Positions 1 to 64,000 of a stretch of DNA of 64,000 nucleotides are shown piece after piece; the stretch's first letter is position 1; the number at the start of each line of letters is the position of its first letter. Below the pieces are notes generated by a model. The model did no database searches and had not been told where the DNA came from. It worked only from the letters and a program-made list of their open reading frames with translations. Source of the DNA: Plotosus lineatus (taxonomy: Eukaryota > Chordata > Actinopteri > Siluriformes > Plotosidae); contig CM045750.1 in NCBI GenBank assembly GCA_024760905.1, forward strand, positions 11,978,419-12,042,418. Direction: 5' to 3'. Made by a program: the position numbers and the translations under genes.

Positions 1-175
1 CCCCATGGGCGGAGACGGTGGCTCTTTCTACGAGTACAGAGACATTTTTGAATTAATAGAAGACATCAACAACCATGACGTGATGGACAGCATTGAGGAC
101 CTGAATTCTTCCCTCGATCATAATCTTGATGAACTTGAAAATATTATTAACAGCCTTTTGAATTCCAAGACGTGA
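1..175 (+). CDS. sox30: SOX30-like gene copy 0, 3' end of last exon (cut by window edge)
   Basis: This is the last 58 codons of exon 5, identical to 5869-6043 of copy 1 and ending at TGA 173-175. It encodes the acidic, Asp/Asn/Leu-rich C-terminus ([25 protein letters not shown]), which looks like a short helical or transactivation-type tail. Position 1 falls on the third base of a His codon. The rest of the gene lies left of the window, so its integrity cannot be judged. Confidence 0.85.
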   Translation, partial: PMGGDGGSFYEYRDIFELIEDINNHDVMDSIEDLNSSLDHNLDELENIINSLLNSKT

Positions 176-871
176 GAACACAATATATATCATTTCACTT
201 CAAAATGTTTTATCTTTTGCATACTAAAAATGTTTTTATCGAAAATTTTACTTTTCATTAAAAAGGTTTTAAAAGTTAACATGTGTATTTATTATAACCA
301 CAAATTCATTTTATTCAAAAGAATTTTTATTTAAAACACTGAAATCATCTTTAATCGCCCACTCATTTGCTGATCCACTGAATGCTACCAACATCACAAG
401 AACCCTATCAAAGCCAAGGTTGGGAGGATGGGCGGTCACCACCTGAACAACTTGCTCACCCCCTCAAACACAAACACACACACACACACACATTCACACT
501 CCTCGAGAATTATAGGAGACATTTGCAGCACTTGGTTCGCTGAATGTGTTTGAGGACACCAGACTACATGAAGAAAAATACATATAAGCACAAAGAGATC
601 ATTCAAACTCCACACAGTAACACCCACACCGAGCTCAGGAGATTCACTCATTATTTCAGTTTTTATGGGATATCACAGAATTTGGAATCATGTTCAAATC
701 TTCATGGTGAGATTACGGATATAAACTTCCATAAAAATTTATAAATGCATCCTTATCTATTGTATTAATCCCACAAAGTCAATTATTTCCTCTGCATTTA
801 ACCCACCCAAAGTGAAAACCCAAACACACAAGGAACAGTGGGCTGTCACACACCTTGGGGGGGCTCGGGGA

Positions 872-1736
872 TTCAAATAGAAGATATTTATTTCATTCTA
901 CTGCGTTTACAACATCACATACATAATATAGCATGATATATGAAAAAAATTCCCAATTAATCCCAATAACAACCATATAACCCTGTCCACCTGATCATCT
1001 AATCATCTGAAGAAATTGTGCACGGTATATTTTCTGGGCTCACCATCGAGAGGTTGTGGGTCGTGATATAAAAAGAAAATTATATTGTTTCAGATGTTTT
1101 CTTTTGCATAGTCTTCTCACATGAGCAGTGAGATAATTCATATCACTGTTTCTTTTTAGGTACTGATTCAAACCCACAACCTCTCGATGGTGAGCCCAGA
1201 AAATATACCGTGCACAACTTCTTCAGATGATTAGGTGATCAGGTGGACAGGGTTATATGGTTATGATGGGGTTTTCAGGAAGATTGATCTCCAGGAAGAG
1301 GGACACCTTACTCCACCAATACCTGAAGAGATTGTTGCAGCAGAGATTTTGACCAAACGGTTCGAAAAGTACAGATTTTAAGTAATTAACACCACCTTTA
1401 CACTGAATTTCGTATTAAATGTCACACTCTGCAAAATCAGAGAAATTAAACGACTTCTGTTCAACACCACAGCGCACGACTCAGCTTCACACAGAAATTA
1501 CAAAAATTCCACATCTTTAAGGTTCCTATTCGGTTCCCAAGGATATTAATGCCAGGCTTAAACAATTCTTTGTTAGCAAGAACATGATTTAAAAAGATTC
1601 ACCAGGGAGGGACGAAAAAAGTTTTGCATGTGCAGGCCACTCGGGATTCGCCAGGAAATTTTTTTCATATATCATGCTATATTATGTATGTGATGTTGTA
1701 AACACAGTAGAATGAAATAAATATCTTCTATTTGAA
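872..1736. repeat. Nested inverted repeat enclosing a copy of the gene's intron 3 / exon 4 acceptor
   Basis: The outer arms 872-953 and 1654-1736 are reverse complements apart from one mismatch and one indel. Inside them, 971-1060 and 1173-1262 are 90-nt arms matching at 88 positions. The 112-nt loop (1061-1172) matches the end of Sox intron 3, including the acceptor and the first bases of exon 4 (compare about 11296-11380). The same structure recurs at about 6740-7605. The equivalent stretch beside degenerate copy 3 (about 14110-14880) has only the right-hand side, so the left arms probably arose by inverted duplication in the lineage of the intact units. Confidence 0.85.
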
Positions 1737-1835
1737 ATCAACATCCCGAATATCAAAGTTTATTATTTTAATATTGTGATCAACAGAGTATCAAGGTTTC
1801 TTCATCATATCACAGTTCATGTCACATCAGAGTCA

Positions 1836-2208
1836 CGAGGGCAGTGGTGGCCTGGTGGTATGGGTTCATTGGATCGCTGATCTGAAGGTTGGGGGTTCGA
1901 GTCCCACTCTCCACAAGGTTGTCACTGTGCCCCCCTCCAGTGCAGCGAACTGGGTTATCAAAGGCCGGCCATGTCTCTCACTGTCTATGGTGTGAGGCAT
2001 GTAAAAAAATAAATAAATAAATAAATCAAAAAACATTGCTGACTTTCATAAAAAGCAGCTCTAAAGCCGCCAGCGTGTTTCTGTCCCTTGTGAAAAAGTT
2101 GTGTCAGGAAGGACATCCGACATAAAAACCTACGCCAAATCAAAAGTGCGAAACATTCGCTATGGCGACTCCTGATAAAGAGAAAAAGCCAAAAAGAAAT
2201 CTCATCAT
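1836..2208 (+). mobile_element. tRNA-derived SINE (family A) with target-site duplication
   Basis: The tRNA-like head has an A-box-like segment (tggcctggtgg) and a B box GGTTCGAGTCC at 1894-1904. A family-specific body follows (ccactctccacaaggttgtcac). The 3' end (gctatggcgactcctgataaa, then agaaaaagcc) resembles the 3' end of the RTE LINE in this window. The element is flanked by a 16-bp direct repeat, 1820-1835 and 2209-2224, with one mismatch. It is a Pol III-transcribed, non-autonomous retroposon, not a tRNA gene. Confidence 0.85.
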
Positions 2209-2490
2209 GTTACATCAGAGTCAGCCATATCCCCTGGAAATTTTTACAAGACTCAAGACCTCTTTTACAGGGTTCACAGCCCAGGCCTGATAAATTTCAA
2301 ACACTTTTTACGGACTTTTCAATGACAAATATTACATTTTCAAGGAATACTTTCATCAACGTGCATGCAATATCAATACAAACAAGATGTTGGTAAGGAT
2401 AGCGAACACATAATTCATGACATTTAAACAAAAATACTGAGAAACTGTATGTTAAATGTCATATTTAATCAGATTCAAGCCGATAACCTG

Positions 2491-2491
2491 A

Positions 2492-2540
<49 letters not shown>

Positions 2541-2541
2541 A
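2491..2541. repeat. (CT)n(CA)n compound microsatellite
   Basis: About 12 CT units run straight into about 12 CA units. It sits about 500 bp upstream of the TATA box of copy 1. The copy 2 equivalent at 8357-8409 differs in repeat number, so it can distinguish the units. Confidence 0.95.
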
Positions 2542-2778
2542 GTACAGAGACGAGCCGTGCACGCGTGCGCACACACGCACACCCCACGGTTTTTCAACAC
2601 AACCGACCGTATATATTTATTTTTAGCCTGTGAAAGCTCAGTCGGGGTTTTTCTGTATAATTTAGTCCCAATCGGCCGTGTTCCCGCCGACAAATATATT
2701 TTTAAGGCTGGACTAAATAAAGATGGAATAATACAGTGGAATTTCTTCAAAATAAAATGGAAAAGTTATTCCACGGGT

Positions 2779-3045
2779 CACGTGGTTTTGTTATTGCCAT
2801 TTGAAAAAGAGACAGTTCCAAAACAAAATGGAAAAAAACCCCACTAAATTGGTTTTGACGCTGATTGGTTGTACCATGCAGTTGAAAAGGATGCACAACG
2901 ACGTGGATTGGCTATTATACCGGGATGCAAATTAGATATGTGCGTCGACTGCAACGTCACTCATGACGCGGCAACTCGTTCGATTTTCGTCAAAAACGTT
3001 CCATTTTATGTGTATAAATACCGAGCATCCACTCAGTCAGTCTCA
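2779..3045 (+). promoter_or_regulatory. TATA promoter of SOX30-like copy 1
   Basis: A TATAAATA box lies at 3013-3020, with an initiator-like pyrimidine/CAGT context near 3035-3043 and the start codon at 3111. Upstream are an E-box CACGTG (2779-2784), inverted CCAAT boxes ATTGG (2864-2868 and 2907-2911) and CRE-like half sites (ACGTCA near 2954, TGACG near 2964). The block is conserved in copy 2 and, more diverged, at 14880-15045 and 21.39-21.65 kb, so it belongs to the unit. CRE-like sites would suit a germ-cell promoter, but that is inference. Confidence 0.65.
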
Positions 3046-3110
3046 ATTTGCTCTCGACCCCCATAACGAACACATCGCGTCTTCTCCTGCTCCAGTAATT
3101 TATTCTCCAC

Positions 3111-6043
3111 ATGGAAACTATGAGCGATCTCGCTGCACCTTCTCGTTCTCAACCCTCTTCAGTGAGTCCTTTCACGACATTGGACGTCGAGATGTTCACG
3201 TTCGGCACCGCCCTTCCCGACCAGCCAACCACCGTCGGAGCGGCTCCCGGAGGCGGGATCTTCACGCGGCTCCCTTCAGCAGGAGGTCGGTTTCCCACCT
3301 GAAAACAGTCATTCTCGGTGGATAAACACACCCCAAGTGATTATCACATCTTTTACATTTACATACTCGGATTCATCTTTCGACTCTCAGGCTTTCGGGT
3401 TGTGGTTTCTTTTCAAATGTAATTATATTGAATATCTCGGAGAACATTCATTCATTTTCTGAACCGAATTCGAGTTTCGGGAAGCGAGTGCCCATTTCAG
3501 CCGGCGTCGGGCGATGGCAGGGTACACCCTGAACAGCTCGCCACACCGCCGGCAGCCCAGGAGCCTCTTTCCCATCGACAGCAACCTTTCCATCCCCAGA
3601 GATCCCGGACTTCCGCTACTTTTCCAGCCAAAGTGTTTTTAATCTTGTTTTTCCCTTCAAAACTTGTTTTGTTAAAAAATAAGAAGAGCGGATAAGTTCT
3701 CATTCAATGTTGTGTTGAGCGAGGTGTTGCTCGAGTTGTGTTTTGGAGAAGAGAAAACAATATGGCGGCGCGGGCTCCAGACAAACTCCCGCTCGCGCTT
3801 TGCTCTCTAATGCATTGAACTTTCTCATCAACTTAACTTGAATATTTAGTGGGGGAAAAACATCCTCCATAAAATAGACAGCAGAACAGTGTCGGGGTTG
3901 GAGAGCATTAAATACCGTCGCCACTCTCGGTGTTCATTTTTCAAGATCAACATCCGGGGAATGCACTTTGGAGTCTTTGCGACGGTGAAGTGATTGACTA
4001 TGCGGGGGCGGGGCTTTCGCTGAAAAAGCTTTGCGAGGGAAACAAATATGGCGCGAGAAAAGACAGAAAACAAAACTACATGAGTTATTTTGATCATAAA
4101 ATCATAAAGTGTTGCATGTATTATATTATGCTTATGTTTTTGATTGTTATTTCCCACTTTGTTTTATGTTATGTCTGACAAAAAAAAATTTAAATTGTGA
4201 AGAAGAATTTAAAAAGAAATCTTTCAAACACTATTCATGATATGCTGGATAAATTATTTATTAGAATATGAACCTTCCCACCCCGCCCAGATACGAAGTA
4301 CTACATCAACTTTCCATCAAATGTCTTCACTATTTACTTTCCATAGTACTGTGTCTACATCTTCAATATGACTGAATCACTGACTTCTGCATATTTTCAT
4401 GATTTTATGAAGAATGAACATTGTTTATATCAGATAACATTTTTCTGAAAACTAAAAACTGAGATGAACTATGATTTCATAAAACAAAATTGGTGGAATA
4501 CTTAGGCAAGTATATTCTTCAGAGGTACATTTTGATGTAATTTTATTATGATTCAACTATTATTTCTACCAATTATGTTCTAGATTTCAAAATATGACCT
4601 CAAATGTGTTCTGTAGTATTTGTAAATGTTAAAATGTCAAACACTTGATGGTGCTTCGTCCCCTGAAACCTCACAAGAGACCTGCTCCCCCTTGCAAACA
4701 AAAAAAGAGCTTCAAGACTTTTGCACAGTCTCCCTCTGTTCTGTTCAGGGTTTGATCTAGAACTCTCTTAACTTGATTTATAATGTTCATTTCTCGCCCA
4801 CAGATGAAGCAAAAATGACCCAGTGGAAGGGGAAGAAAGGCCGCATCAAGAGACCCATGAACGCCTTTCTAATCTGGTCGAGGATTCACAGGCCCATCCT
4901 GGCAAAGGCGAACCCGACGGCAAAGAGCTCCGATATCAGTGTGGAGCTGGGGAACGAGTGGAGGAAACTCACTGAAGACCAGAAGGAGCCCTATTACAAA
5001 GACGCCAAGAGGCTTGAAATCCTCCACAGAGAGACGTTTCCTGGTAAGGAACACAGAATTCACAGATCATGAGGAAATTCTAGAGACTAACAGATCCACC
5101 CTCAGACGGTTTGTGGTTGTTCAGTGTGTTGTTGAATTCACCTGTGAACCTTTCTTTCCTGTGATGTAGAATACAGCTACAATCCACGTGCAGAGAAAAG
5201 GAAGCACTCTGATGGAGAGACACTTCAGGCCTCCACTGCCTCATCAGCTGTCGTGCAGAGAACCCAAAGGAGGTCTGCACCTTATAAGATCCCTGCAGCA
5301 CCGCTGAGATCCTCCATCTCACAGGACTCTGCAGGACATGCCGGTCATACATCCTCCGGTACACAGCACTTTCATTCTTCTGCCTCTGTTCTTTTTCATC
5401 TTACTCATAAGAATAGCCTTTATTTTAATTATTATTTTATTATCTAAAAAGAAAATTATATTGTTTCAGATGTCTTCTCACATGAGCAGTGAAATAATTC
5501 ATATCACTGTTTCTTTTTAGGTACTTTACAGTGTGGCGCCTACCAGTGGACTCCAGTCCTACAGGCACACCACCCTGTGATGATGGACGGGTCAGGAGGA
5601 GTTAGACTGGTGTCTGAACCTCTTGGCCAATTCTTTGGCGACGAGATCCTCTCACCTCAGCTCGTTTCTGGGATAACAACGGCTCCAGTCCACCAGATCC
5701 GGTGAGTAATCTGCACTGGGTTGACTTCAGGAGATCAGCGATTCCAATAAAGTGTTTCTGCAGCGTCTCAGGTAGTCGCTGTAATAGACATCCGATTGCT
5801 TTTTCTTATGGATGCAAATTTCTGTTTTATAGCCCCTTGAGTTCTGACCAGCTGAGCAGTGTGGCTCACCCCATGGGCGGAGACGGTGGCTCTTTCTACG
5901 AGTACAGAGACATTTTTGAATTAATAGAAGACATCAACAACCATGACGTGATGGACAGCATTGAGGACCTGAATTCTTCCCTCGATCATAATCTTGATGA
6001 ACTTGAAAATATTATTAACAGCCTTTTGAATTCCAAGACGTGA
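3111..6043 (+). CDS. sox30: SOX30-like HMG-box transcription factor, copy 1 (intact, 5 exons)
   Basis: Exons: 3111-3285, 4804-5043, 5170-5358, 5521-5701 and 5833-6043. All introns are GT-AG, with phases 1, 1, 1 and 2. They join to 996 nt, 331 residues, ending at TGA 6041-6043. Exon 1 encodes 58 residues of Ser/Pro/Gly-rich leader. Exon 2 encodes the HMG box (about 72-140) with RPMNAFLIW, where canonical Sox has RPMNAFMVW, followed by [12 protein letters not shown]. Exon 3 opens with [10 protein letters not shown], a basic segment like that after the SOX30 box. The rest is a divergent C-terminus ending in an acidic [11 protein letters not shown] helix. SOX proteins bend DNA at ACAA-type sites, and SOX30 is a testis/spermatid regulator in mammals. 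The protein is shorter than mammalian SOX30, and only the box and basic tail support the assignment. The start was chosen for its position after the TATA box; a second ATG lies 9 nt downstream. Confidence 0.85.
3286..4803 (+). other. Intron 1 of copy 1, with a dispersed-repeat tail
   Basis: The donor follows GGAG at 3285 and the acceptor is CAG 4801-4803. About 3450-3560 matches the tail of the dispersed repeat family D (gggtacaccctg, gctcgcc). A GC-rich stretch at 3740-4060 contains short reading frames on both strands without recognisable domains. The rest is AT-rich. The copy 2 equivalent is 9153-10670. Confidence 0.7.
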
Positions 6044-8357
6044 GAACACAATATATATCATTTCACTTCAAAATGTTTTATCTTTTGCATACTAAAAATG
6101 TTTTTATCGAAAATTTTACTTTTCATTAAAAAAGGTTTTAAAAGTTAACATGTGTATTTATTATAACCACAAATTCATTTTTATTCAAAAGAATTTTTAT
6201 TTAAAACACTGAAATCATCTTTAATCGCCCACTCATTTGCTGATCCACTGAATGCTACCAACATCACAAGAACCCTATCAAAGCCAAGGTTGGGAGGATG
6301 GGCGGTCACCACCTGAACAACTTGCTCACCCCCTCAAACACAAACACACACACACACACACATTCACACTCCTCGAGAATTATAGGAGACATTTGCAGCA
6401 CTTGGTTCGCTGAATGTGTTTGAGGACACCAGACTACATGAAGAAAAATACATATAAGCACAAAGAGATCATTCAAACTCCACACAGTAACACCCACACC
6501 GAGCTCAGGAGATTCACTCATTATTTCAGTTTTTATGGGATATCACAGAATTTGGAATCATGTTCAAATCTTCATGGTGAGATTACGGATATAAACTTCC
6601 ATAAAAATTTATAAATGCATCCTTATCTATTGTATTAATCCCACAAAGTCAATTATTTCCTCTGCATTTAACTCCACCCAAAGTGAAAACCCAAACACAC
6701 AAGGAACAGTGGGCTGTCACACACCTTGGGGGCTCGGGATTCAAATAGAAGATATTTATTTCATTCTACTGCGTTTACAACATCACATACATAATATAGC
6801 ATGATATATGAAAAAAATTCCCAATTAATCCCAATAACAACCATATAACCCTGTCCACCTGATCATCTAATCATCTGAAGAAATTGTGCACGGTATATTT
6901 TCTGGGCTCACCATCGAGAGGTTGTGGGTCGTGATATAAAAAGAAAATTATATTGTTTCAGATGTTTTCTTTTGCATAGTCTTCTCACATGAGCAGTGAG
7001 ATAATTCATATCACTGTTTCTTTTTAGGTACTGATTCAAACCCACAACCTCTCGATGGTGAGCCCAGAAAATATACCGTGCACAACTTCTTCAGATGATT
7101 AGGTGATCAGGTGGACAGGGTTATATGGTTATGATGGGGTTTTCAGGAAGATTGATCTCCAGGAAGAGGGACACCTTACTCCACCAATACCTGAAGAGAT
7201 TGTTGCAGCAGAGATTTTGACCAAACGGTTCGAAAAGTACAGATTTTAAGTAATTAACACCACCTTTACACTGAATTTCGTATTAAATGTCACACTCTGC
7301 AAAATCAGAGAAATTAAACGACTTCTGTTCAACACCACAGCGCACGACTCAGCTTCACACAGAAATTACAAAAATTCCACATCTTTAAGGTTCCTATTCG
7401 GTTCCCAAGGATATTAATGCCAGGCTTAAACAATTCTTTGTTAGCAAGAACATGATTTAAAAAGATTCACCAGGGAGGGACGAAAAAAGTTTTGCATGTG
7501 CAGGCCACTCGGGATTCGCCAGGAAATTTTTTTCATATATCATGCTATATTATGTATGTGATGTTGTAAACACAGTAGAATGAAATAAATATCTTCTATT
7601 TGAAATCAACATCCCGAATATCAAAGTTTATTATTTTAATATTGTGATCAACAGAGTATCAAGGTTTCTTCATCATATCACAGTTCATGTCACATCAGAG
7701 TCACGAGGGCAGTGGTGGCCTGGTGGTATGGGTTCATTGGATCGCTGATCTGAAGGTTGGGGGTTCGAGTCCCACTCTCCACAAGGTTGTCACTGTGCCC
7801 CCCTCCAGTGCAGCGAACTGGGTTATCAAAGGCCGCCATGTCTCTCACTGTCTATGGTGTGAGGCATGTAAAAAAATAAATAAATAAATAAATCAAAAAC
7901 ATTGCTGACTTTCATAAAAGCAGCTCTAAGGCCGCCCGCTTGTTTCTGTCCCTTGTGAAAAAGTTGTGTCAGGAAGGACATCCGACATAAAAACCTACGC
8001 CAAATCAAAAGTGCGAAACATTCGCTATGGCGACTCCTGATAAAGAGAAAAAGCCAAAAAGAAATCTCATCATGTTACATCAGAGTCAGCCATATCCCCT
8101 GGAAATTTTTACAAGACTCAAGACCTCTTTTACAGGGTTCACAGCCCAGGCCTGATAAATTTCAAACACTTTTTACGGACTTTTCAATGACAAATATTAC
8201 ATTTTCAAGGAATACTTTCATCAACGTGCATGCAATATCAATACAAACAAGATGTTGGTAAGGATAGCGAACACATAATTCATGACATTTAAACAAAAAT
8301 ACTGAGAAACTGTATGTTAAATGTCATATTTAATCAGATTCAAGCCGATAACCTGAC

Positions 8358-8411
<54 letters not shown>

Positions 8412-8977
8412 CAGAGACGAGCCGTGCACGCATGCGCACACACGCACACCCCACGGTTTTTCAACACAACCGACCGTATATATTTATTTTTAGCCTGTGA
8501 AAGCTCAGTCGGGGTTTTTCTGTATAATTTAGTCCCAATCGGCCGTGTTCCCGCCGACAAATATATTTTTAAGGCTGGACTAAATAAAGATGGAATAATA
8601 CAGTGGAATTTCTTCAAAATAAAATGGAAAAGTTATTCCACGGGTCACGTGGTTTTGTTATTGCCATTTGAAAAAGAGACAGTTCCAAAACAAAATGGAA
8701 AAAAACCCCACTAAATTGGTTTTGACGCTGATTGGTTGTACCATGCAGTTGAAAAGGATGCACAACGACGTGGATTGGCTATTATACCGGGATGCAAATT
8801 AGATATGTGCGTCGACTGCAACGTCACTCATGACGCGGCAACTCGTTCGATTTTCGTCAAAAACGTTCCATTTTATGTGTATAAATACCGAGCATCCACT
8901 CAGTCAGTCTCAATTTGCTCTCGACCCCCATAACGAACACATCGCGTCTTCTCCTGCTCCAGTAATTTATTCTCCAC
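6044..8977. other. Intergenic spacer and promoter of unit 2
   Basis: This is a near-identical repeat of 176-3110. A weak polyadenylation-type ATTAAA lies at 6125-6130 after copy 1. It holds the nested inverted repeat (about 6740-7605), SINE A (about 7704-8072), the CT/CA microsatellite (8357-8409) and the promoter, with TATAAATA at 8880-8887 and the E-box and CCAAT boxes at matching offsets. No independent gene is seen. Confidence 0.8.
7704..8072 (+). mobile_element. SINE family A, unit 2 copy
   Basis: This is the duplicate of 1836-2208, with the same flanking direct repeats (about 7688-7703 and 8073-8088). It was inserted before the unit duplicated, so it is one insertion event seen twice. 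Confidence 0.8.
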
Positions 8978-11898
8978 ATGGAAACTATGAGCGATCTCGC
9001 TGCACCTTCTCGTTCTCAACCCTCTTCAGTGAGTCCTTTCACGACATTGGACGTCGAGATGTTCACGTTCGGCACCGCCCTTCCCGACCAGCCAACCACC
9101 GTCGGAGCGGCTCCCGGAGGCGGGATCTTCACGCGGCTCCCTTCAGCAGGAGGTCGGTTTCCCACCTGAAAACAGTCATTCTCGGTGGATAAACACACCC
9201 CAAGTGATTATCACATCTTTTACATTTACATACTCGGATTCATCTTTCGACTCTCAGGCTTTCGGGTTGTGGTTTCTTTTCAAATGTAATTATATTGAAT
9301 ATCTCGGAGAACATTCATTCATTTTCTGAACCGAATTCGAGTTTCGGGAAGCGAGTGCCCATTTCAGCCGGCGTCGGGCGATGGCAGGGTACACCCTGAA
9401 CAGCTCGCCACACCGCCGGCAGCCCAGGAGCCTCTTTCCCATCGACAGCAACCTTTCCATCCCCAGAGATCCCGGACTTCCGCTACTTTTCCAGCCAAAG
9501 TGTTTTTAATCTTGTTTTTCCCTTCAAAACTTGTTTTGTTAAAAATAAGAAGAGCGGATAAGTTCTCATTCAATGTTGTGTTGAGCGAGGTGTTGCTCGA
9601 GTTGTGTTTTGGAGAAGAGAAAACAATATGGCGGCGCGGGCTCCAGACAAACTCCCGCTCGCGCTTTGCTCTCTAATGCATTGAACTTTCTCATCAACTT
9701 AACTTGAATATTTAGTGGGGGAAAAACATCCTCCATAAAATAGACAGCAGAACAGTGTCGGGGTTGGAGAGCATTAAATACCGTCGCCACTCTCGGTGTT
9801 CATTTTTCAAGATCAACATCCGGGGAATGCACTTTGGAGTCTTTGCGACGGTGAAGTGATTGACTATGCGGGGGCGGGGCTTTCGCTGAAAAAGCTTTGC
9901 GAGGGAAACAAATATGGCGCGAGAAAAGACAGAAAACAAAACTACATGAGTTATTTTGATCATAAAATCATAAAGTGTTGCATGTATTATATTATGCTTA
10001 TGTTTTTGATTGTTATTTCCCACTTTGTTTTATGTTATGTCTGACAAAAAAAAATTTAAATTGTGAAGAAGAATTTAAAAAGAAATCTTTCAAACACTAT
10101 TCATGATATGCTGGATAAATTATTTATTAGAATATGAACCTTCCCACCCCGCCCAGATAATGAAGTACTACATCAACTTTCCATCAAATGTCTTCACTAT
10201 TTACTTTCCATAGTACTGTGTCTACATCTTCAATATGACTGAATCACTGACTTCTGCATATTTTCATGATTTTATGAAGAATGAACATTGTTTATATCAG
10301 ATAACATTTTTCTGAAAACTAAAAACTGAGATGAACTATGATTTCATAAAACAAAATTGGTGGAATACTTAGGCAAGTATATTCTTCAGAGGTACATTTT
10401 GATGTAATTTTATTATGATTCAACTATTATTTCTACCAATTATGTTCTAGATTTCAAAATATGACCTCAAATGTGTTCTGTAGTATTTGTAAATGTTAAA
10501 ATGTCAAACACTTGATGGTGCTTCGTCCCCTGAAACCTCACAAGAGACCTGCTCCCCCTTGCAAACAAAAAAAGAGCTTCAAGACTTTTGCACAGTCTCC
10601 CTCTGTTCTGTTCAGGGTTTGATCTAGAACTCTCTTAACTTGATTTATAATGTTCATTTCTCGCCCACAGATGAAGCAAAAATGACCCAGTGGAAGGGGA
10701 AGAAAGGCCGCATCAAGAGACCCATGAACGCCTTTCTAATCTGGTCGAGGATTCACAGGCCCATCTTGGCAAAGGCGAATCCGACGGCAAAGAGCTCCGA
10801 CATCAGTGTGGAGCTGGGGAACGAGTGGAGGAAACTCGCTGAAGACCAGAAGGAGCCCTATTACAAAGACGCCAAGAGGCTTGAAATCCTCCACAGAGAG
10901 ACGTTTCCTGGTAAGGAACACAGAATTCACAGATCATGAGGAAATTCTAGAGACTAACAGATCCACCCTCAGACGGTTTGTGGTTGTTCAGTGTGTTGTT
11001 GAATTCACCTGTGAACCTTTCTTTCCTGTGATGTAGAATACAGCTACAATCCACGTGCAGAGAAAAGGAAGCACTCTGATGGAGAGACACTTCAGGCCTC
11101 CACTGCCTCACCAGCTGTCGTGCAGAGAACCCAAAGGAGGTCTGCACCTTATAAGATCCCTGCAGCACCGCTGAGATCCTCCATCTCACAGGACTCTGCA
11201 GGACATGCCGGTCATACATCCTCTGGTACACAGCACTTTCATTCTTCTGCCTCTGTTCTTTTTCATCTGACACCAAAGAATAGTCCTTATTTTATGATAT
11301 AAAAAGAAAATTATATTGTCTCAGATGTTTTCTCACATGAGCAGTGAGATAATTCATATCACTGTTTCTTTTTAGGTACTTTACAGTGTGGCGCCTACCA
11401 GTGGACTCCAGTCCTACAGGCACACCACCCTGTGATGATGGACGGGTCAGGAGGAGTTAGACTGGTGTCTGAACCTCTTGGCCAATTCTTTGGCTACGAG
11501 ATCCTCTCACCTCAGCTCGTTTCTGAGATAACAACGGCTCCAGTCCACCAGATCCGGTGAGTAATCTGCACTGGGTTGACTTCAGGAGATCAGCGATTCC
11601 AATAAAGTGTTTCTGCAGCGTCTCAGGTAGTCGCTGTAATAGACATCCGATTGCTTTTTCTGATGGATGCAAATTTCTGTTTTATAGCCCCTTGAGTTCT
11701 GACCAGCTGAGCAGTGTGGCTCACCCCATGGGCGGAGACGGTGGCTCTTTCTACGAGTACAGGGAACTTTATGAATTAATAGAAGACATCAACAACAATG
11801 ACGAGATGGACAGCATTGAGGACCTGAATTTTTCCCTCGATCATAATCTTGATGAACTTGAAAATATTATTAACAGCCTTTTGAATTCCATGACGTGA
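8978..11898 (+). CDS. sox30: SOX30-like HMG-box transcription factor, copy 2 (intact, 5 exons)
   Basis: Exons: 8978-9152, 10671-10910, 11037-11225, 11376-11556 and 11688-11898. Splice sites and phases match copy 1, again giving 331 residues. Exon 1 is identical at the protein level. By my hand comparison the two proteins differ at 11 residues (T to A in the HMG box; S to P; D to Y; G to E; D to E, I to L, F to Y, H to N, V to E, S to F and K to M towards the C-terminus), against about five silent changes. Five of the last seven replacements fall in a 20-residue acidic segment of exon 5. Spacer and promoter are almost unchanged from copy 1, so divergence is concentrated in exons 2-5. Function is inferred as for copy 1: nuclear DNA binding through the HMG box. 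Confidence 0.85.
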
Positions 11899-11984
11899 GA
11901 ACACTATATGCATAATTTCACTTCAAAATGTTTTCTTTTGCATGCTTAAAATGTTTTTATCGAAAATTTTCCTATTCATTAAAA

Positions 11985-12000
11985 AAGGTTTTAGGTGTTC
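11985..12000. other. Deletion junction between copy 2 and copy 3
   Basis: The 3' flank of copy 2 (aaaaaaggtttta) runs straight into the sequence found about 200 bp before exon 2 in the other units (gtgttctgtagtatttg, as at about 10473). About 4.3 kb of unit is missing: the spacer, SINE, promoter, exon 1 and most of intron 1. Copy 3 therefore has no promoter of its own. Confidence 0.85.
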
Positions 12001-12206
12001 TGTAGTATTTGTAAATGTTAAAATGTCAATAACTTGATGGTGCCTCGTCCCCTGAAACCTCACAAGAGACCTGCTCCCCCTTGCAAACAAAAAAGAGCTG
12101 CAAGACTTTTGCACAGTCTCCCTCTGTTCTGTTCAGGGTTTGATCTCGAACCCTCTTTGAGAGTAATTTTTGAACTTGATTTATAATGTTCATTTCTCGC
12201 CCACAG

Positions 12207-13400
12207 ATGAAGCAAAAATGACCCAGTGGAAGGGGAAGAAAGGCCGCATCAAGAGACCCATGAACGCCTTTCTAATCTGGTCGAGGATTCACAGGCCCAT
12301 CCTGGCAAAGGCGAACCCGACGGCAAAGAGCTCCGACATCAGTGTGGAGCTGGGGAACGAGTGGAGGAAACTCACTGAAGACCAGAAGGAGCCCTATTAC
12401 AAAGACGCCAAGAGGCTTGAAATCCTCCACAGAGAGACGTTTCCTGGTAAGGAACACAGAATTGACAGATCATGAGGAAATTATAGAGACTAACAGATCC
12501 ACCCTCAGACGGTTTGTGGTTGTTCAGTGTGTTGTTGAATTCACCTGTGAACCTTTCTTTTCTGTGATGTAGAATACAGCTACAATCCACGTGCAGAGAA
12601 AAGGAAGCACTCTGATGGAGAGACACTTCAGGCCTCCACTGCCTCACCAGCTGTCGTGCAGAGAACCCAAAGGAGGTCTGCACCTTATAAGATCCCTGCA
12701 GCACCGCTGAGATCCTCCATCTCACAGGACTCTGCAGGACATGCCGGTCATACATCCTCCGGTACACAGCACTTTCATTCATCTGATGCCAAAGAATCGT
12801 CCTTATTTATTATTTTGTTTGAAAAGAAAGTTATATTGTCTCAGATGTTTTCTTTTGCCTAGTCTTTTCACATGAGCAGTGAAATAATTCATATCACTGT
12901 TTCTTTTTCGGTACTTTACAGTGTGGCACCTACCAGTGGACTCCAGTCCTACAGGCTCACCACCCTGTGATGATGGACGGGTCAGGAGGAGTTAGACTGG
13001 TGTCTGAACCTCTTGGCCAATTCTTTGGCTTCGAGATCCTCTCACCTCAGCTCGTTTCTGGGATATTAACGGCTCCAGTCGACCAGATCCGGTGAGTAAT
13101 CTGCACTGGGTTGACTTCAGAAGATCAGTGATTCCAATCAAGTGTTTATTACAGCGACTAAATGAGACGCTGCAGAGACAGTCAATTGCTTTTTCTTATG
13201 GATGCAAATTTCTGTTTTATAGCCCCTTGAGTTTTGACCAGCTGAGCCGTGTGGCTCTTTCTACGAGGACAGAGACATTTACGAATTAATAGAAGTAATC
13301 AACAACAATGACGTGATGGACAGCATTGAGGACCTGAATTCTTCCCTCGATCATAATCTTGAACTTAAATATTCTAAACAGCCTTTTGAATGCCAAGACA
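12207..13400 (+). pseudogene. SOX30-like copy 3, promoterless and disrupted
   Basis: Recognisable exons: exon 2 12207-12446 (240 nt, HMG box intact), exon 3 12573-12761, exon 4 12911-13091 and exon 5 from 13223. Three defects are visible. Exon 1 and the promoter are deleted. The exon 4 acceptor AG is CG (12909-12910). Exon 5 lacks 25 nt between two GTGGCT motifs, which shifts the frame and ends it early at about 13289. The HMG box is unbroken, so a read-through or chimeric transcript from copy 2 could in principle include it, but a normal protein is not encoded. Confidence 0.9.
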
Positions 13401-13859
13401 TGAGAACACTATATGTATAATTTCACTTCAAAATGTTTTCTTTTGCATACTTCATGTTTTTATAGAAAATTTTACTATTCATTTAAAAAAGGTTTTAAAA
13501 GTTAACATGTGTGTTTATTACAACTACAAATTTGTTTTTAATCAGAAGAAAGGAGCAGATTTGACTGATTTTCTTTAAAACACTGAAATCACATCACTCA
13601 CTCATTTGCTGAACCACTTATTGTTACCAACATCACAAGGACCCTATCAAAGCCAACGTTGGGAGAAGGGGGGAGTCACCCCTGAACAGCTTGCTCACCC
13701 ACACCCCAGACACACAGAATTATAGGACACCCTCACCGAACTCAGATTCACTCATTATTTCAGGTTTTTATGAGATATCATAATTTGGAATACATTCATG
13801 ATAAAATCAGCATGGTGAGAATCCGAATAGAAATTTGTTAAAATGCATGCATATTTTTT

Positions 13860-14112
13860 ATTTACTGTACGAATCGTACAAAGTAAATTATCTCACACAA
13901 ACAAACAGGGAATAGTGGGCTGCCACACACTTTGAGGGGCCCGGAGAGCAGTTGTGGGTTTCAGTGCCTTGCTCAAGGACACTTGGATGAAAAGATGCAG
14001 TTCACTCCCACCCCACACAAAACACACACATTCCTTCTGGTTCGGGAATCAAACCCGCAACGTTTTGGTACCGAAGTCACTTCTTTAACAATCAGGCTAC
14101 AGCTACCTATTT
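13860..14112 (-). mobile_element. tRNA-related SINE-like repeat (family C)
   Basis: On the minus strand the head contains a B-box-like element (complement of gggaatcaaacccgcaacg), followed by the body with cagtgccttgctcaaggaca and agtgggctgccacacac. The same family is at 16755-17100. A truncated piece at about 780-870 and in unit 2 stops exactly where the nested inverted repeat starts. Confidence 0.6.
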
Positions 14113-14239
14113 AAAAAGATTATGCATAAAGTGAATTGTTTGTTTATGATTTACACACACACACAAATACACAGACAAGAAAAAAAAAATAAAACCTTAA
14201 ACAACTATAATTCTATTGACTTAATCAATTCACATTTCA

Positions 14240-14345
14240 TTTTCAATTTCTGGAACCGCTTAATCCTAATTAGTCACGGGGAGGTTGGCACCCATCACAG
14301 CTGACTCGAGGTGAGGGCAGAGTACACCCTGGACAGCTTGCCAGG
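14240..14345 (-). mobile_element. Tail fragment of dispersed repeat family D
   Basis: It contains tggaaccgcttaatcctaat and gcagagtacaccctggacag, the reverse complement of the conserved 3' tail of the widespread teleost family D repeat. It is a truncated copy only. Confidence 0.6.
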
Positions 14346-14879
14346 CCTCATTTTCCATTCTCGTTGAGTTAATGGATTTCTACTTTACACACAAACCCCA
14401 TTTTACTGTTAGTTCCAGGTTTGACTGGACTTCAGTGGTGCCCATCCCTGTTCGTGGAGATCCACATTCCTGAAGACTTCAACTCTAACTTGGCCCACCA
14501 GAGGATCTTAACATCAAGTCTCTTGGGCTTTTTCTACCTGGGCCGAATGGCGATTAAATTTGCATGATTAAAATGATCAGATGGACCGGGTTGTACGGTT
14601 GTAAAAAAAAAAAGTTTTCAGGAAGATTGAGCTCCACGAAGAGGGACACCTTACTTCCCCAATACACCTGAAGAGATTGTTGCAGCAGAGATTTTGATCA
14701 AAACCTTTCCAAAAGTACAGGCTTTAAATAAATAACACCTTTACACTGAATTTTGTATTAAATGTCACACTCTGCAAAAACAGAGAAATTAAAATACAGT
14801 ATTTCTTCAACACCATAGTGCACTGCTCAGCATCACACAAAAATTCACATCTTTAAGGTTCCTAATCCGTTCCCAGAGA

Positions 14880-15045
14880 TATTAAATAATGATGAATTAC
14901 AGTGGAATTTCTTAGAAATAAAATGGAAAAGTAATTCCTCAGGTCACGTGGTCTTATTTGATACAGATCGAGGACCAATACAAGATGAAAAACTAAAAGC
15001 GCTAATGACTATTGATTGGCTGTTATGTTCCTCGACATGGATTGG
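14880..15045 (+). pseudogene. Promoter remnant of a further SOX30-like unit
   Basis: It matches 2725-2910: acagtggaatttctt, then ggtcacgtggt (E-box), then the two inverted CCAAT motifs with cgacatggattggc. It lacks the TATA box and exon 1, because an RTE LINE fragment follows directly. It is the decayed start of another unit. Confidence 0.7.
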
Positions 15046-21229: not shown

Positions 21230-21850
21230 ACAGGCGATGGCAGACATCTGGAACAAACTCCTGAACGCTGGCGTGAACTCCTGGAGAACTCCTCCTGTTT
21301 TGGTCTCGTTCTGGCATCTGATTGGATAACTCCCTTAGATCCACCCACAGTCAGAGTCTGAATCTGACCACCGAAACCAGTTGTGACTCTACCTGGCTGT
21401 TATGTACCACGACGTGGATTGGCTTGAATACAGTGATGCAAATGAAGTGGGCATCACCAGACAACAGTCGTTTAGGACGCTGAAACTATTTAATGTCTAA
21501 ATATACTATGAATATCTATTTAAAATCCACAATGTTCCATCTTATTCCTAAACATACTGAGCATCAACTCCATCTTGATCACAATTTGTTCTCGAGCCAC
21601 CATAACGAACACCTCGCATCCTCTCCTGCGACAGTCATTTATTCTCCACATGGAAACTGGGCGATCTCGCTGCATCTTCTTGTGCTCAACCCTCTCCAGC
21701 GAGTTCTTTCAACTACAGTGAATGTCGAGATGTTCACGTGCAGCACTGCCCTTCCTTACCAGCGTCGGAGTGGTTAACGGGCAGGGGGGGGGCTTCACGC
21801 AGCTCCCTTCAGCACAAGGTAGATTTCCCACCTGAAAACCGTTAGTCATT
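21230..21850 (+). pseudogene. SOX30-like promoter and exon 1 relic
   Basis: It aligns with 2868-3300: cgacgtggattggct, then ataacgaacac-tcgc and attctccacatggaaact, then gtcgagatgttcacg. The start codon is at 21650-21652, but a 2-nt loss right after the third codon shifts the frame compared with exon 1 at 3111. No HMG exon follows for 8.3 kb. It may be the 5' half of the copy whose exons 2-5 lie at 30194-31352, split by transposon insertions. Confidence 0.8.
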
Positions 21851-22079
21851 CTCTGTGGATCAACACAACCCAAGAAACCCCTTTTACACTTACAAACTAA
21901 TTTCTTTGAACTTTTAAGCAGCATTGAGAGTCGCCTGACAGAAATCCTCGTTTATACAATTATCCACTGCATTAATTTGATTTTGTGAATCTAGAGGATC
22001 ATTTATCTGGAAATCACTTCACTAATAAAACAGGAAATATTTATACATTAAAAATCTCAATATTATTACACTGAACTAC

Positions 22080-30193: not shown

Positions 30194-31352
30194 TTTTCTA
30201 ATCTGGTTGAGCATTCACAGGCCCATCCTGGCAAAGGCGAACCTGACGGCAAAGAGCTCCGACATCAGTGTGGAGCTGGGGAACGAGTGGAGGAAACTCA
30301 CTGAAGACCAGAAGGAGCCCAATTACAAAGACGCCAAGAGGCTTGAAATCCTCCACAGAGAGAAGTTTCCTGGTAAGGAACACAGAATTCACAGATCATG
30401 AGGAAATTATAGACACTAACAGATCCACCCTCAGACGGTTTGTGGTTGTTCAGTGTGTTGTTGAATTCACCTGTGAACCTTTCTTTCCTGTGATGTAGAA
30501 TACAGCTTCAATCCACGTGGAGAGAAAAGGAAGCACTCTGATGGAGAGACACTTCAGGCCTCCACTGCCTCACCAGCTGTCGTGCAGAGAACCCAAAGGA
30601 GGTCTGCACCTTATAAGATCCCTGCAGCACCGCTGAGATCCTCCGTCTCACAGGACTCTGCAGGACATGCCGGTCTTGCATCCTCTGGTACACAGCACTT
30701 TCATTCTTCTGCCGCCGTTCTTTTTCATCTGACACCAAAGAATAGTCCTTATTTTATGATATAAAAAGAAAATTATATTGTTTCAGATGTCTTCTCACAT
30801 GAGCAGTGAGATAATTCATATCACTGTTTCTTTTTAGGTACTTTACAGTGTGGTGCCTACCAGTGGACTCCAGTCCTACAGGCTCACCACCCTGTGATGA
30901 TGGACGGGTCAGGAGGAGTTAGACTGGTGTCTGAACCTCTTGGCCAATTCTTTGGCTACGAGATCCTCTCACCTCAGCTCGTTTCTGGGATAACAACGGC
31001 TCCAGTCCACCAGATCCGGTGAGTAATCTGCACTGGGTTGACTTCAGGAGATCAGTGATTCCAATGAAGTGTTTCTGCAGCGTCTCAGGTAGTCGCTGTA
31101 ATAGACATCCGATTGCTTTTTCTTATGGATGCAAATTTCTGTTTTATAGCCCCTTGAGTTCTGACCAGCTGAGCAGTGTGGCTCACCCCATGGGCGGGGA
31201 TGATGGCTTTTCCACGAGTACAGAGACCTTTACGAATTAATAGAAGAAAACCACCATGACATGATGGACAGCATAGAGCACCTGAATTCTTCCCGCGATC
31301 ATAATCTTGAACTTGAAAATATTATAAACAGCCTTTTGAATGCCAAGACATG
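30194..31352 (+). pseudogene. SOX30-like copy 4, 5'-truncated and frameshifted
   Basis: Homology starts inside the HMG box at 30194 (ttctaatctggt), losing its first 20 or so residues including the RPMNAF motif. Exon 2 remainder 30194-30372, exon 3 30499-30687 (189 nt), exon 4 30838-31018 (181 nt) and exon 5 from 31150 keep correct GT-AG sites. Exon 5 has a 1-nt deletion near 31210 that shifts the frame into TAA at 31238-31240. Its intron 3 is closer to copy 2 than to copy 1. Confidence 0.9.
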
Positions 31353-31387
31353 AGAACACTATGTATTATCTAATAAATACATTTTAT

Positions 31388-31627
31388 ATTCACATCAAAA
31401 GTTCTGACCAACCAAGCAGTATGGATCACCCCATGGACAGGTACGGTGGTTGTTTCCATGATGATGGTGAAATTTCCAAGTCCGTAACAGAAATAAACCA
31501 TCATGACGCGATCCACAGCATAGAGGACCAGAATTCTTCAACCAGTCTGAATCTATATGTACTTAAAAATATGATCAACCACCTTTTGAATAGAAGTTAC
31601 ACACACAGCATATTAGCTCAGTGCTAG
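31388..31627 (+). pseudogene. Second, divergent SOX30-like exon 5
   Basis: It encodes, without a stop for about 66 codons, SSDQPSSMDHPMDRYGG, then HHDAIHSIEDQNSS and LKNMINHLLNRS, clearly homologous to the exon 5 C-terminus of copies 1-2 ([36 protein letters not shown]) but about half the residues differ. The stop is at 31625-31627. No HMG exon of matching divergence is next to it. It is either an alternative last exon for copy 4 or a leftover of a much older duplication. Confidence 0.75.
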
Positions 31628-40101: not shown

Positions 40102-41637
40102 GTATGAAGAAGCAAGGAAGGTGAGCAGGAAGTAGCAAAGATTAGTAAGGGTGAAGTGAGGAGGGCATTGAAGAGGATGAAGAGTGGAAAGGCAGTTGGC
40201 ACTGATGACATACCAGTTGAGGTATGGAAGTGTCTAGGGGAGGTAGCAGTAGATTTTCTGACAAGAATATTCAACAAGGTCTTAGAAAGTGAGCAGATGC
40301 CAGAGGAATGGAGGAGAAGTGTGCTTGTGCCCATTTTTAAGAACAAGGGAGATGTACAGAGTTGTGGCAACTACAGAGGGATAAAGTTGATGAGCCATAC
40401 AATGAAGCTATGGGAAAGAATAGTGGAAGCAAGACTAAGGGCAGAGGTCAGCATTTGTGAACAACAGTTTGGTTTCATGCCAAGAAAGAGCACCACAGAT
40501 GCAGTGTTTGCTTTGAGGATGTTAATAGAGAAGTACAGAGAAGGTCAGAAGGAGCTGCATTGTGCCTTTGTGGATCTGGAGAAAGCATATGACAGGGTGC
40601 CGAGAGAAGAACTGTGGTATTGTATGAGGAAGTCTGGAGTGACAGAGAAGTATGTTAGAGTGGTGCAGGACATGTATGAGAGATGTAAGACAGTGGTGAG
40701 GTGTGCTGTCGGTGTGACAGAAGAGTTCAAGGTGGAGGTGGGACTGCATCAAGGGTCAGCTCTCAGCCCCTTCTTGTTTGCAATGGTGATGGACAGGCTA
40801 ACAGACGAGGTTAGACAAGAATCTCCATAGACTATGATGTTTGCAGATGACATCGTGATCTGTAGTGAGAGCAGAGACCAAGTGGAGGAAAATCTAGAGA
40901 GGTGGAGGTATGCCCTGGAAAGGAGGGGATTGAAGGTTAGTCTTAGTAAGACAGAATACATGTGTGTGAACGACAAGGACCCAAGAGGAACTTTGAGGTT
41001 ACAGGGGGCAGAGATAAAGAAGGTGGAGGATTTTAAGTACTTAGGCTCAACAATCCAGAGCAATGGAGAGTGTGGAAAAGAGGTGAAGAAGCGCGTGCAG
41101 GCAGGTTGGAATAGATGGAGAAAAGTGTCCGGTGTGATGTGTGATAGGAGAGTATCGGCAAGAATGAAGGGAAAAGTGTACAAGACGGTGATGAGGCCAG
41201 CAATGTTGTATGGTTTAGAGACAGTGGCCCTGGGGAAAAGACAGGAGGCAGAGTTGGAGGTAGCAGAGATGAAAATGTTGAGGTTCTCTTTGGGAGTAAC
41301 GAGGATGGATAGGATCAGAAATGAGTCCATCAGAGGGACAGCACATGTTAGATGTTTTGGAGACAAAGCCAGAGAGGCTAGATTGAGATGGTTTGGACAT
41401 GTACAGAGGAGGGATAGTGAGTATATTGGTCGTAGGATGCTGAGGTTGGAACTACCAGGCAAAAGGCCCAGAGGAAGACCAAAGAGAAGATTTATGGATG
41501 CGGTGAAGGCGGACATGAAGGTCGTTCGAGTAAGAGTAGAAGATGCAGAGGATAGGGAGAGATGGAGGCAGATCATTTGCTGTGGCGACCCCTGAAGGGA
41601 ACAGCCGAAAGGAAAAGAAGAAGTATGAAGAAGCAAG
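40102..41637 (+). repeat. 15-bp target-site duplication flanking the RTE LINE
   Basis: gtatgaagaagcaag occurs at 40102-40116 and again at 41623-41637, exactly bounding the element between them. It is identical on both sides, which indicates a recent insertion by target-primed reverse transcription. Confidence 0.9.
40117..41622 (+). mobile_element. RTE-clade-like LINE, 5'-truncated, one internal stop
   Basis: One frame runs 40117-41595 with a single TAG at 40828-40830. RT motifs in order: NYRGIKLMSHTMKLWERIVE, QFGFMPRKSTTDAVF, FVDLEKAYDRVPREELW (motif A), GLHQGSALSPFLF (motif B) and FADDIVICSE (motif C, catalytic DD). A C-terminal region follows with MLYGLETVAL, RLRWFGHVQRR and RPRGRPKRRFMD. 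The N-terminal endonuclease is missing through 5' truncation. The 3' UTR is very short (gctgtggcgacccctgaagg and onward). The enzyme copies its own RNA at a nicked target; this copy is dead from truncation and the stop. Confidence 0.9.
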
Positions 41638-43349: not shown

Positions 43350-43866
43350 CTTTTCCTTTCGGCTGTTCCCTTCAGGGGTCACCATAGTGAATCATCTGCC
43401 TTCATCTCACCCTATCCTCTGCAACAACTCTTACTCCAACTACCTTCATGTCCTTCTTCACCACATCCATAAATCTCCTCTTGGGTCTTCCTCTAGGCCT
43501 TCTGACTGGTAGTGCCAACCTCAGCATCCTACTACCAATATACTTGCTATCCCTCCTCTGTACATGTCCAAACCATCTCAATCTAGCCTCTCTGACTTTG
43601 TCTTCAAAACCTCTTACATGTGCTGTCCCTCTGATGTACTCATTTCTCTTCTGTCATACCAACAGCACACCACACCACTGTCTTACATCTCTCATACATG
43701 TCCTGCACCACTGTAACATACTTCTCTGCCACTCCAGACTTCCTCATGCAATACCACAGTTCCTCTCTCGGCACCCTGTCATATGCTTTCTCAAGATCCA
43801 TTAAGGCACAATGTCGCTCCCTCTGATCTTCTCTGTACAGGGATCCTTGAGGAACAGCATTGTGCA
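43350..43866 (-). mobile_element. RTE-like LINE with internal deletion
   Basis: The minus strand encodes LEKAYDRVPREELWYCMRKS, then YVTVVQDMYERCKTVVW, and jumps near 43650 to the C-terminal region ending in the ctgttcccttcaggggtc 3' tail. About 0.6 kb of RT (motifs B and C) is missing relative to 40117-41622. Confidence 0.85.
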
Positions 43867-43985
43867 TGCTTCACCGCTTAATCCTCATTCAAGCCGCATG
43901 TAGGCTTGGGCCCATCCTAGCCAACTCCGGGCGAGAACAGGGTACACCCTGGACAGCTCACCAGACCATCGCAGGGCAGAAACAC
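43867..43985 (-). mobile_element. Tail fragment of dispersed repeat family D
   Basis: It contains ttcaccgcttaatcctcatt and gaacagggtacaccctggac, the reverse complement of the conserved tail. Confidence 0.65.
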
Positions 43986-47429: not shown

Positions 47430-63961
<16,532 letters not shown>

Positions 63962-64000
63962 GTATGTACTTGAAACTTCAGAAATGTAGTAGGTCAACAT

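Follow-up and report, generated by a model that had tools for sequence, protein, structure and literature searches.

A tandem array of SOX30-type HMG-box genes with dispersed relatives in the genome of the catfish Plotosus lineatus

SOX30 is a gene-control factor of developing sperm and is usually reported as a single gene. The 64,000 nt stretch of Plotosus lineatus DNA analysed here (the window; C23:11978419-12042418, on a 28.5-Mb contig of a 1.334-Gb assembly with 30 contigs) begins with near-identical tandem copies of a gene carrying a SOX-type HMG box, which raises the question of what these genes are, how they were multiplied and whether the copies are likely to be used. The best explanation, and one that we consider probable, is a tandem SOX30 (group H) array that has been multiplied by unequal exchange and birth-and-death of copies, and that encodes a germ-line HMG-box factor.

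Two genes in the window, g1 (3111-6043) and g2 (8978-11898), each consist of five exons (175, 240, 189, 181 and 211 bp) with gt/ag splice sites, and both are open and encode 331 amino acids, in agreement with the two intact 331-codon genes of the first-pass annotation. Residues 73-141 match the Pfam HMG_box domain (PF00505, E 5.4e-21), a score that, together with the kilobase-scale repeats, excludes chance. The best match among solved structures is human SOX30 (7jjk, 107 bits), the best single-SRY-box chain reaching 81 bits and other groups also scoring lower. In a 51-row tree of HMG boxes all 26 rows from this genome (11 from the array and 15 dispersed) group with SOX30 at a support of 100/100, apart from the boxes of groups A, B, C, D, E and F, and in a second tree of 54 rows the SOX30 clade is again separate from the other groups with 100/100, on 68 columns. 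The SOX30 type proposed from the sequence alone is thereby borne out, with no Plotosus row falling outside group H.

Likeness to vertebrate SOX30 (SoxH; human 7jjk, tilapia) extends to the words RIHRP and LAKANP, the basic tail after the box, the length of the HMG exon (240 bp, as in tilapia) and the intron phases that follow from the exon lengths, namely phase 1 on both sides of the HMG exon and phase 2 at the entry to the last exon. The exons of tilapia sox30 are given as 193, 135, 240, 253 and 241 bp in the accessible text of PMC3004900. Judged by these reported lengths, the Plotosus gene lacks one of the coding exons that precede the HMG exon in tilapia and has an additional intron downstream of the HMG exon. 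Outside the box, the protein can be aligned over its full length with SOX30 of Pangasius, Hemibagrus, Neoarius and Ictalurus (37-41% identity), pre-box and C-terminal segments included; the individual values are 40% for Hemibagrus (P0001), 41% for Pangasius (P0007) and 39% for Pangasianodon (P0008). The long N-terminus of SOX30 is missing, and the window protein begins with METMSDL. The first-pass annotation had described the rest of the protein as unlike mammalian SOX30, which is correct for the N-terminus but does not extend to catfish SOX30, with which the protein aligns along its length. Judged from its sequence, the window gene is a shortened SOX30 co-ortholog (group H). A motif search of the fetched loci and the window found neither the long N-terminus of catfish SOX30 nor a conventional SOX30.

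The array was mapped by reading exons in the window and in the 40 kb to its left. It extends over approximately C23:11.949-12.010 Mb, with the first 13.5 kb of the window as its right part, and contains 12 SOX30-type HMG exons. From left to right, the order is A, B2, B1, C, D, D', E, E', g1, g2, g3, a relic exon 1 and g4. Six of these (A, C, D, E, g1 and g2) are complete five-exon genes and all six are open, two of them (g1 and g2) lying in the window. Four bodies (B1, D', E' and g3) have exons 2-5 without exon 1, and three are open, the exception being the broken g3; since these bodies are young, openness alone says little about them. B2 (exons 2-3) and B1 form an inverted pair, and B2, g3, g4 and the relic exon 1 are broken or partial. 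The four double bodies (D/D', E/E', g2/g3 and B1/B2) have an identical join of a 3' end to intron 1 and, because the join is the same in all four, it most likely arose once and was later copied.

Window positions 1-6140 align with 5869-11993 over 6,146 columns at 98.9% identity, with an offset of 5,868 bp, matching the near-identical, head-to-tail 5.87-kb units described previously. Two other parts of that description need adjustment. The supposed third gene ending at the window edge is not a complete gene but the body E', with exons 2-5 and no exon 1, and the copy reported as promoterless (g3, 12207-13403) does lack exon 1 but is also broken, by a CG acceptor and a frameshift. The relic exon 1 (21650-21814), g4 (30195-31353) and a decayed exon 5 (31400-31591) had not been listed (Table 1). 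Pieces of an older unit occur in order at window 13241-14885, 21531-21874 and 30195-31362, with about 79-96% identity to the young units and other DNA between them, and are perhaps a single ancient unit that was split by insertions and partly overwritten.

Similarity between the units is uneven. Across 2 kb upstream, g1 and g2 share 99.75% identity, and in intron 1 they share 99.93%, but only 92.7% in intron 3; E' and g1 differ by one coding base. Exon 5 occurs in two main types, one found in C, D', E' and g1, and the other, with the forms ELYELIE or DLYELIE, in B1, D, E and g2. At silent sites, the divergence among C, D, D', E, E', g1 and g2 amounts to 0-0.036, and from copy A they differ by 0.083-0.093. 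Such a patchwork would be the trace of unequal crossing-over and gene conversion. In the history we propose, a single SOX30 gene gave rise repeatedly to copies that retained its introns, some of them local and others on different chromosomes. Unequal crossing-over would have amplified the C23 copy, the unit being about 5.7-5.9 kb long where it has one body and about 7.4 kb where it has two, and sequence would have been exchanged patchily between array units. Window 962-1271 forms a hairpin whose long arms match imperfectly (78% over about 310 bp), and the hairpin recurs in the next unit; its middle is 83% identical to the end of intron 3 and the start of exon 4 of SOX30, and it looks like a small inverted-repeat element with a captured gene fragment. 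Part of the C24 locus described below matches window 1070-1163 at 94.7% identity.

The array is not the only site of SOX30-type sequence in this genome. A genome search returned 72 HMG-box matches, including the 12 array exons and 16 dispersed SOX30-type exons, while eight SOX loci (L001-L008) and L024, L025 and L028 were classed as not SOX30; the SOX30-type count covers individually examined matches, 31 of the 72 falling outside this one-by-one examination. The dispersed exons are on C7 (six, one partial), C3 (two), C24 (one), C23 outside the array (four) and C1 (three). With two decayed copies on C16 added, there are 30 SOX30-type HMG exons (fragments counted), 18 of them outside the array, and six contigs are represented in all. 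This count excludes a weak match of 34 residues at C7:56808453 and isolated exon pieces on C17 and C24. An orphan exon 1 lies on C17, and two of the loci (L026 and L027) contain N stretches. The HMG exon is full-length and open in 15 of the 16 dispersed copies, and in 13 of these 15 the distance between AG and GT is exactly 240 bp. The copy at C7:56.86 Mb gives a complete open gene model that starts with METVTDL and has an HMG exon of 237 bp. The nearest relative of the array is the copy on C24, which has an open body, and an exon 1 with GTG in place of ATG and an apparent frameshift. As introns are kept, copying was DNA-based, and retroposition was ruled out. The expanding cluster of the first-pass annotation is thus an array larger than was noted, and one part of a genome-wide radiation. 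The decayed C16 copies (L032 and L033, at 2.09 and 1.89 Mb) are oppositely oriented, about 207 kb apart and similar in their flanks, as in a large inverted duplication.

In the 54-row tree, the 18 rows from this genome (15 dispersed and 3 from the array) come together in one clade (94/94). The larger group around it includes 10 of the 11 other catfish rows, with Trichomycterus outside. Bagarius is a weak sister of the Plotosus clade (90/76), and the Ictalurus and Ameiurus copies make up a separate one. Both trees omit g4 and the partial C7:56.817 exon, and for the larger tree eight near-identical array rows were dropped and 11 of 41 newly found proteins were used. With 68 columns only, the single origin of the Plotosus copies and its date are loose. 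Four SOX30-like proteins of Ictalurus furcatus (P0012, P0013, P0014 and P0016) have records that all give a 25,248,234-bp contig, and so may likewise belong to a local multi-copy family, some perhaps being isoforms of one gene. The shared contig size, and the placement of P0012 and P0013 with Ameiurus in a clade apart from the copies studied here, suggest a second, independent local expansion in that species.

Each complete unit has its own TATA/CCAAT-type upstream region, the predicted promoter, and would encode a 331-amino-acid HMG-box transcription factor. Every one of the six complete array copies has TATAAA at -98 or -99 and ATTGG boxes ahead of its start codon, which, at the level of sequence, agrees with the repeated promoter postulated earlier. 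In the C24 relative TATAAA is at -102; in the C7:56.86 copy there are two ATTGG/CCAAT words and no TATAAA. By analogy with SOX30, the array proteins may bind SOX-type DNA sites in male germ cells, where the acidic C-terminus could act on transcription, and extra copies might raise dosage or divide the SOX30 role; bodies without exon 1 may provide alternative 3' exons for the upstream unit, or be unused. Most likely, the germ-line SOX30 function would be shared by several genes. In tilapia, sox30 is driven by Dmrt1 and its expression in testis is high, according to the accessible portion of PMC6862701, and SOX30 expressed sequence tags of channel catfish were of gonad origin in the part of PMC3004900 available. 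The same text identifies the reported zebrafish Sox30 as Sox21, and the zebrafish gene tabulated in the available part of PMC6173838 may also be sox21.

Constraint on the copies was gauged by the ratio of replacement to silent substitution rates (dN/dS). For the HMG exon the median was 0.24 (115 usable of 120 pairs, from the 15 dispersed copies and g1), and when nine pairs were analysed by part the values were 0.13-0.49 for the HMG exon and 0.46-0.74 for exons 3-5. By these ratios, the DNA-binding part is constrained and the remainder drifts or adapts, changing faster. The main rival explanation is neutral amplification, in which SOX30 became redundant in the Plotosus lineage, the array copies have little transcription or lack a function under selection, and they are intact because they are young. 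Constraint in the young array is indeed weak, with coding-sequence dN/dS of 0.41-0.83 against copy A, and the differences between exon-5 types are near the 4:1 ratio of sites, in small numbers (6-9 replacement and 0-2 silent differences in 16 between-type pairs, for about 167 to 40 sites; these numbers are too small, and positive selection on exon 5 is not claimed). The four broken or partial array pieces and the two decayed C16 copies also fit neutrality. Against this, dN/dS of the HMG exon is 0.24-0.49 for the array versus copy A or C24, although significant in only two of five pairs, the TATAAA and ATTGG boxes have been kept in all complete copies, and all six of these are open. On balance, we regard neutral amplification as unlikely.

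The preferred explanation, of a functional SOX30 array, also has to accommodate several observations that weigh against it. Thg1l and Adam19 are conserved neighbours of SOX30 in human, mouse, chicken, anole and frog, without being defining, and in this genome THG1L lies at C15:30.17 Mb, on a contig where no SOX30-type match was found; the genome HMG-box search gave an unclassified 42-bit match 3.8 Mb from THG1L. Single array pairs have dN/dS above 1, based on very few changes, Fisher tests were non-significant for the HMG exon in three of nine pairs (all with copy A) and for exons 3-5 in five of nine, and broken copies are frequent. A complete open gene has been demonstrated for one of the 15 dispersed copies (C7:56.86), exon 1 being unrecognised in most others. 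The one-clade result comes from the 54-row tree only, the 51-row tree leaving several Plotosus rows in an unresolved fork. None of the six complete array copies has a Dmrt1-like core word (ACA[AT]TGT) in its 450-bp upstream stretch, and in striped catfish testis Sox30 transcripts are listed at a low level in the available part of PMC6173838.

A more far-reaching possibility is that single-copy SOX30 has been replaced in a siluroid lineage by a family of fast-turnover germ-line factors, with the C23 cluster ampliconic and dosage-sensitive, and perhaps sex-linked or driving; this is quite unlikely. The related proposal of an ampliconic, sex-linked or meiotically selfish cluster, held at high copy number by dosage conflict or male-specific selection, is improbable. 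It would suit a testis-type gene with a high local copy number, exchange between units and a fast C-terminus, but not the spread of SOX30-type HMG exons over six contigs. Chromosome 4 is the sex chromosome of channel catfish. In favour of the sex-linked or selfish cluster, the accessible part of PMC6173838 tabulates sox30 of that fish on chromosome 4 and as up-regulated in males. An assembly artefact, in which duplicated or mis-joined haplotypes create a false tandem array, is very unlikely: the near-identity of g1 and g2 upstream and in intron 1, and of E' and g1, would be expected from it, but among the other bodies silent-site differences reach 3.6% and the exon-5 type is not uniform, unit lengths, joins and orientation vary, and divergence is greater for copy A and the C24 relative. 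The refuting possibility raised with the first-pass annotation, of simple assembly duplication, is likewise unlikely because the copies share one 28.5-Mb contig, differ from each other and have different flanks. That the family belongs to another SOX group or a new HMG family is hardly credible, for although its box is only 41/67 identical to human SOX30, the figure for Pangasius is also 41/67, six other boxes reach just 26-33 of 67 (SRY 32, SOX2-like 33, SOX4 26, SOX5 28, SOX9 26, SOX17 27), and the clade support is 100/100.

The kind of gene is known, and what is new is the scale, the array and the double-body units. Each vertebrate genome has a single group H gene, and small-scale duplication of Sox genes is rare in teleosts, according to the accessible text of PMC5524304, which is also in accord with the earlier statement that SOX30 has been lost in several fish lineages. 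As a small-scale Sox duplication on one chromosome, the array resembles teleost sox17/sox32, but that duplication is a single ancient pair, described as the sole example among the teleosts examined (PMC5524304, same portion), whereas here there is a group H array that is apparently still turning over. In contrast to the single gene described for vertebrates, 30 HMG exons (fragments included) are present, and the protein of the window gene has a shorter N-terminus. Full-text literature searches, judged by titles and abstract starts and with subscription literature mostly outside their scope, found no report of multi-copy sox30. With 15 dispersed full-length open HMG exons in addition to the young array, the multiplication of a spermatogenesis regulator becomes testable. 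Database proteins named Sox-19a-like, Sox-3-like or SOX-2-like (P0025, P0031 and P0042) fall in the SOX30 clade; because such relatives bear other Sox names, part of the apparent absence of SOX30 in fish may be a matter of naming, and re-annotation of its presence and copy number is suggested.

Table 1. SOX30-type features in the window (positions are those of the 64,000 nt stretch).
Feature	Position	Strand	Basis
Most of the last exon of promoterless body E' (exons 2-4 left of the window)	1..175	+	exon reading
g1 upstream stretch taken as promoter; TATAAA at 3013, ATTGG (inverted CCAAT) boxes upstream	2661..3110	+	aligned in 6/6 complete array copies
g1 exon 1, start METMSDL	3111..3285	+	
g1 exon 2, HMG box, 240 bp, phase 1/1	4804..5043	+	
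g1 exon 3, post-box basic segment	5170..5358	+	
g1 exon 4	5521..5701	+	
g1 exon 5, acidic C-terminus and stop	5833..6043	+	
g2 upstream stretch taken as promoter; TATAAA at 8880	8528..8977	+	
g2 exon 1	8978..9152	+	
g2 exon 2, HMG box	10671..10910	+	
g2 exon 3	11037..11225	+	
g2 exon 4	11376..11556	+	
g2 exon 5	11688..11898	+	
Junction of g2 3' end to intron 1 of next body	11980..12010	+	join common to 4/4 double bodies
g3, promoterless pseudogene: exons 2-5, intron-3 acceptor CG not AG, last exon frameshifted	12207..13403	+	
Exon 1 relic, 78% identity, with upstream stretch	21650..21814	+	
g4, 5'-truncated inside HMG box, last exon frameshifted	30195..31353	+	
Second, decayed exon 5 copy, 73%	31400..31591	+	

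Other sequences in the window are of less direct relevance to the array. Exons at 61940-64000 may belong to a gene for a synaptojanin-type SAC domain protein, and a comparison of this gene with solved structures gave no match. Reverse-transcriptase-like frames were seen in translation readings at 40108-41592 and 43405-43870, the second piece being on the other strand. A short repeat at 1839-2198 has full or partial matches in all 20 fetched loci that were compared (L013-L028 and L032-L035), a distribution like that of a short interspersed element.

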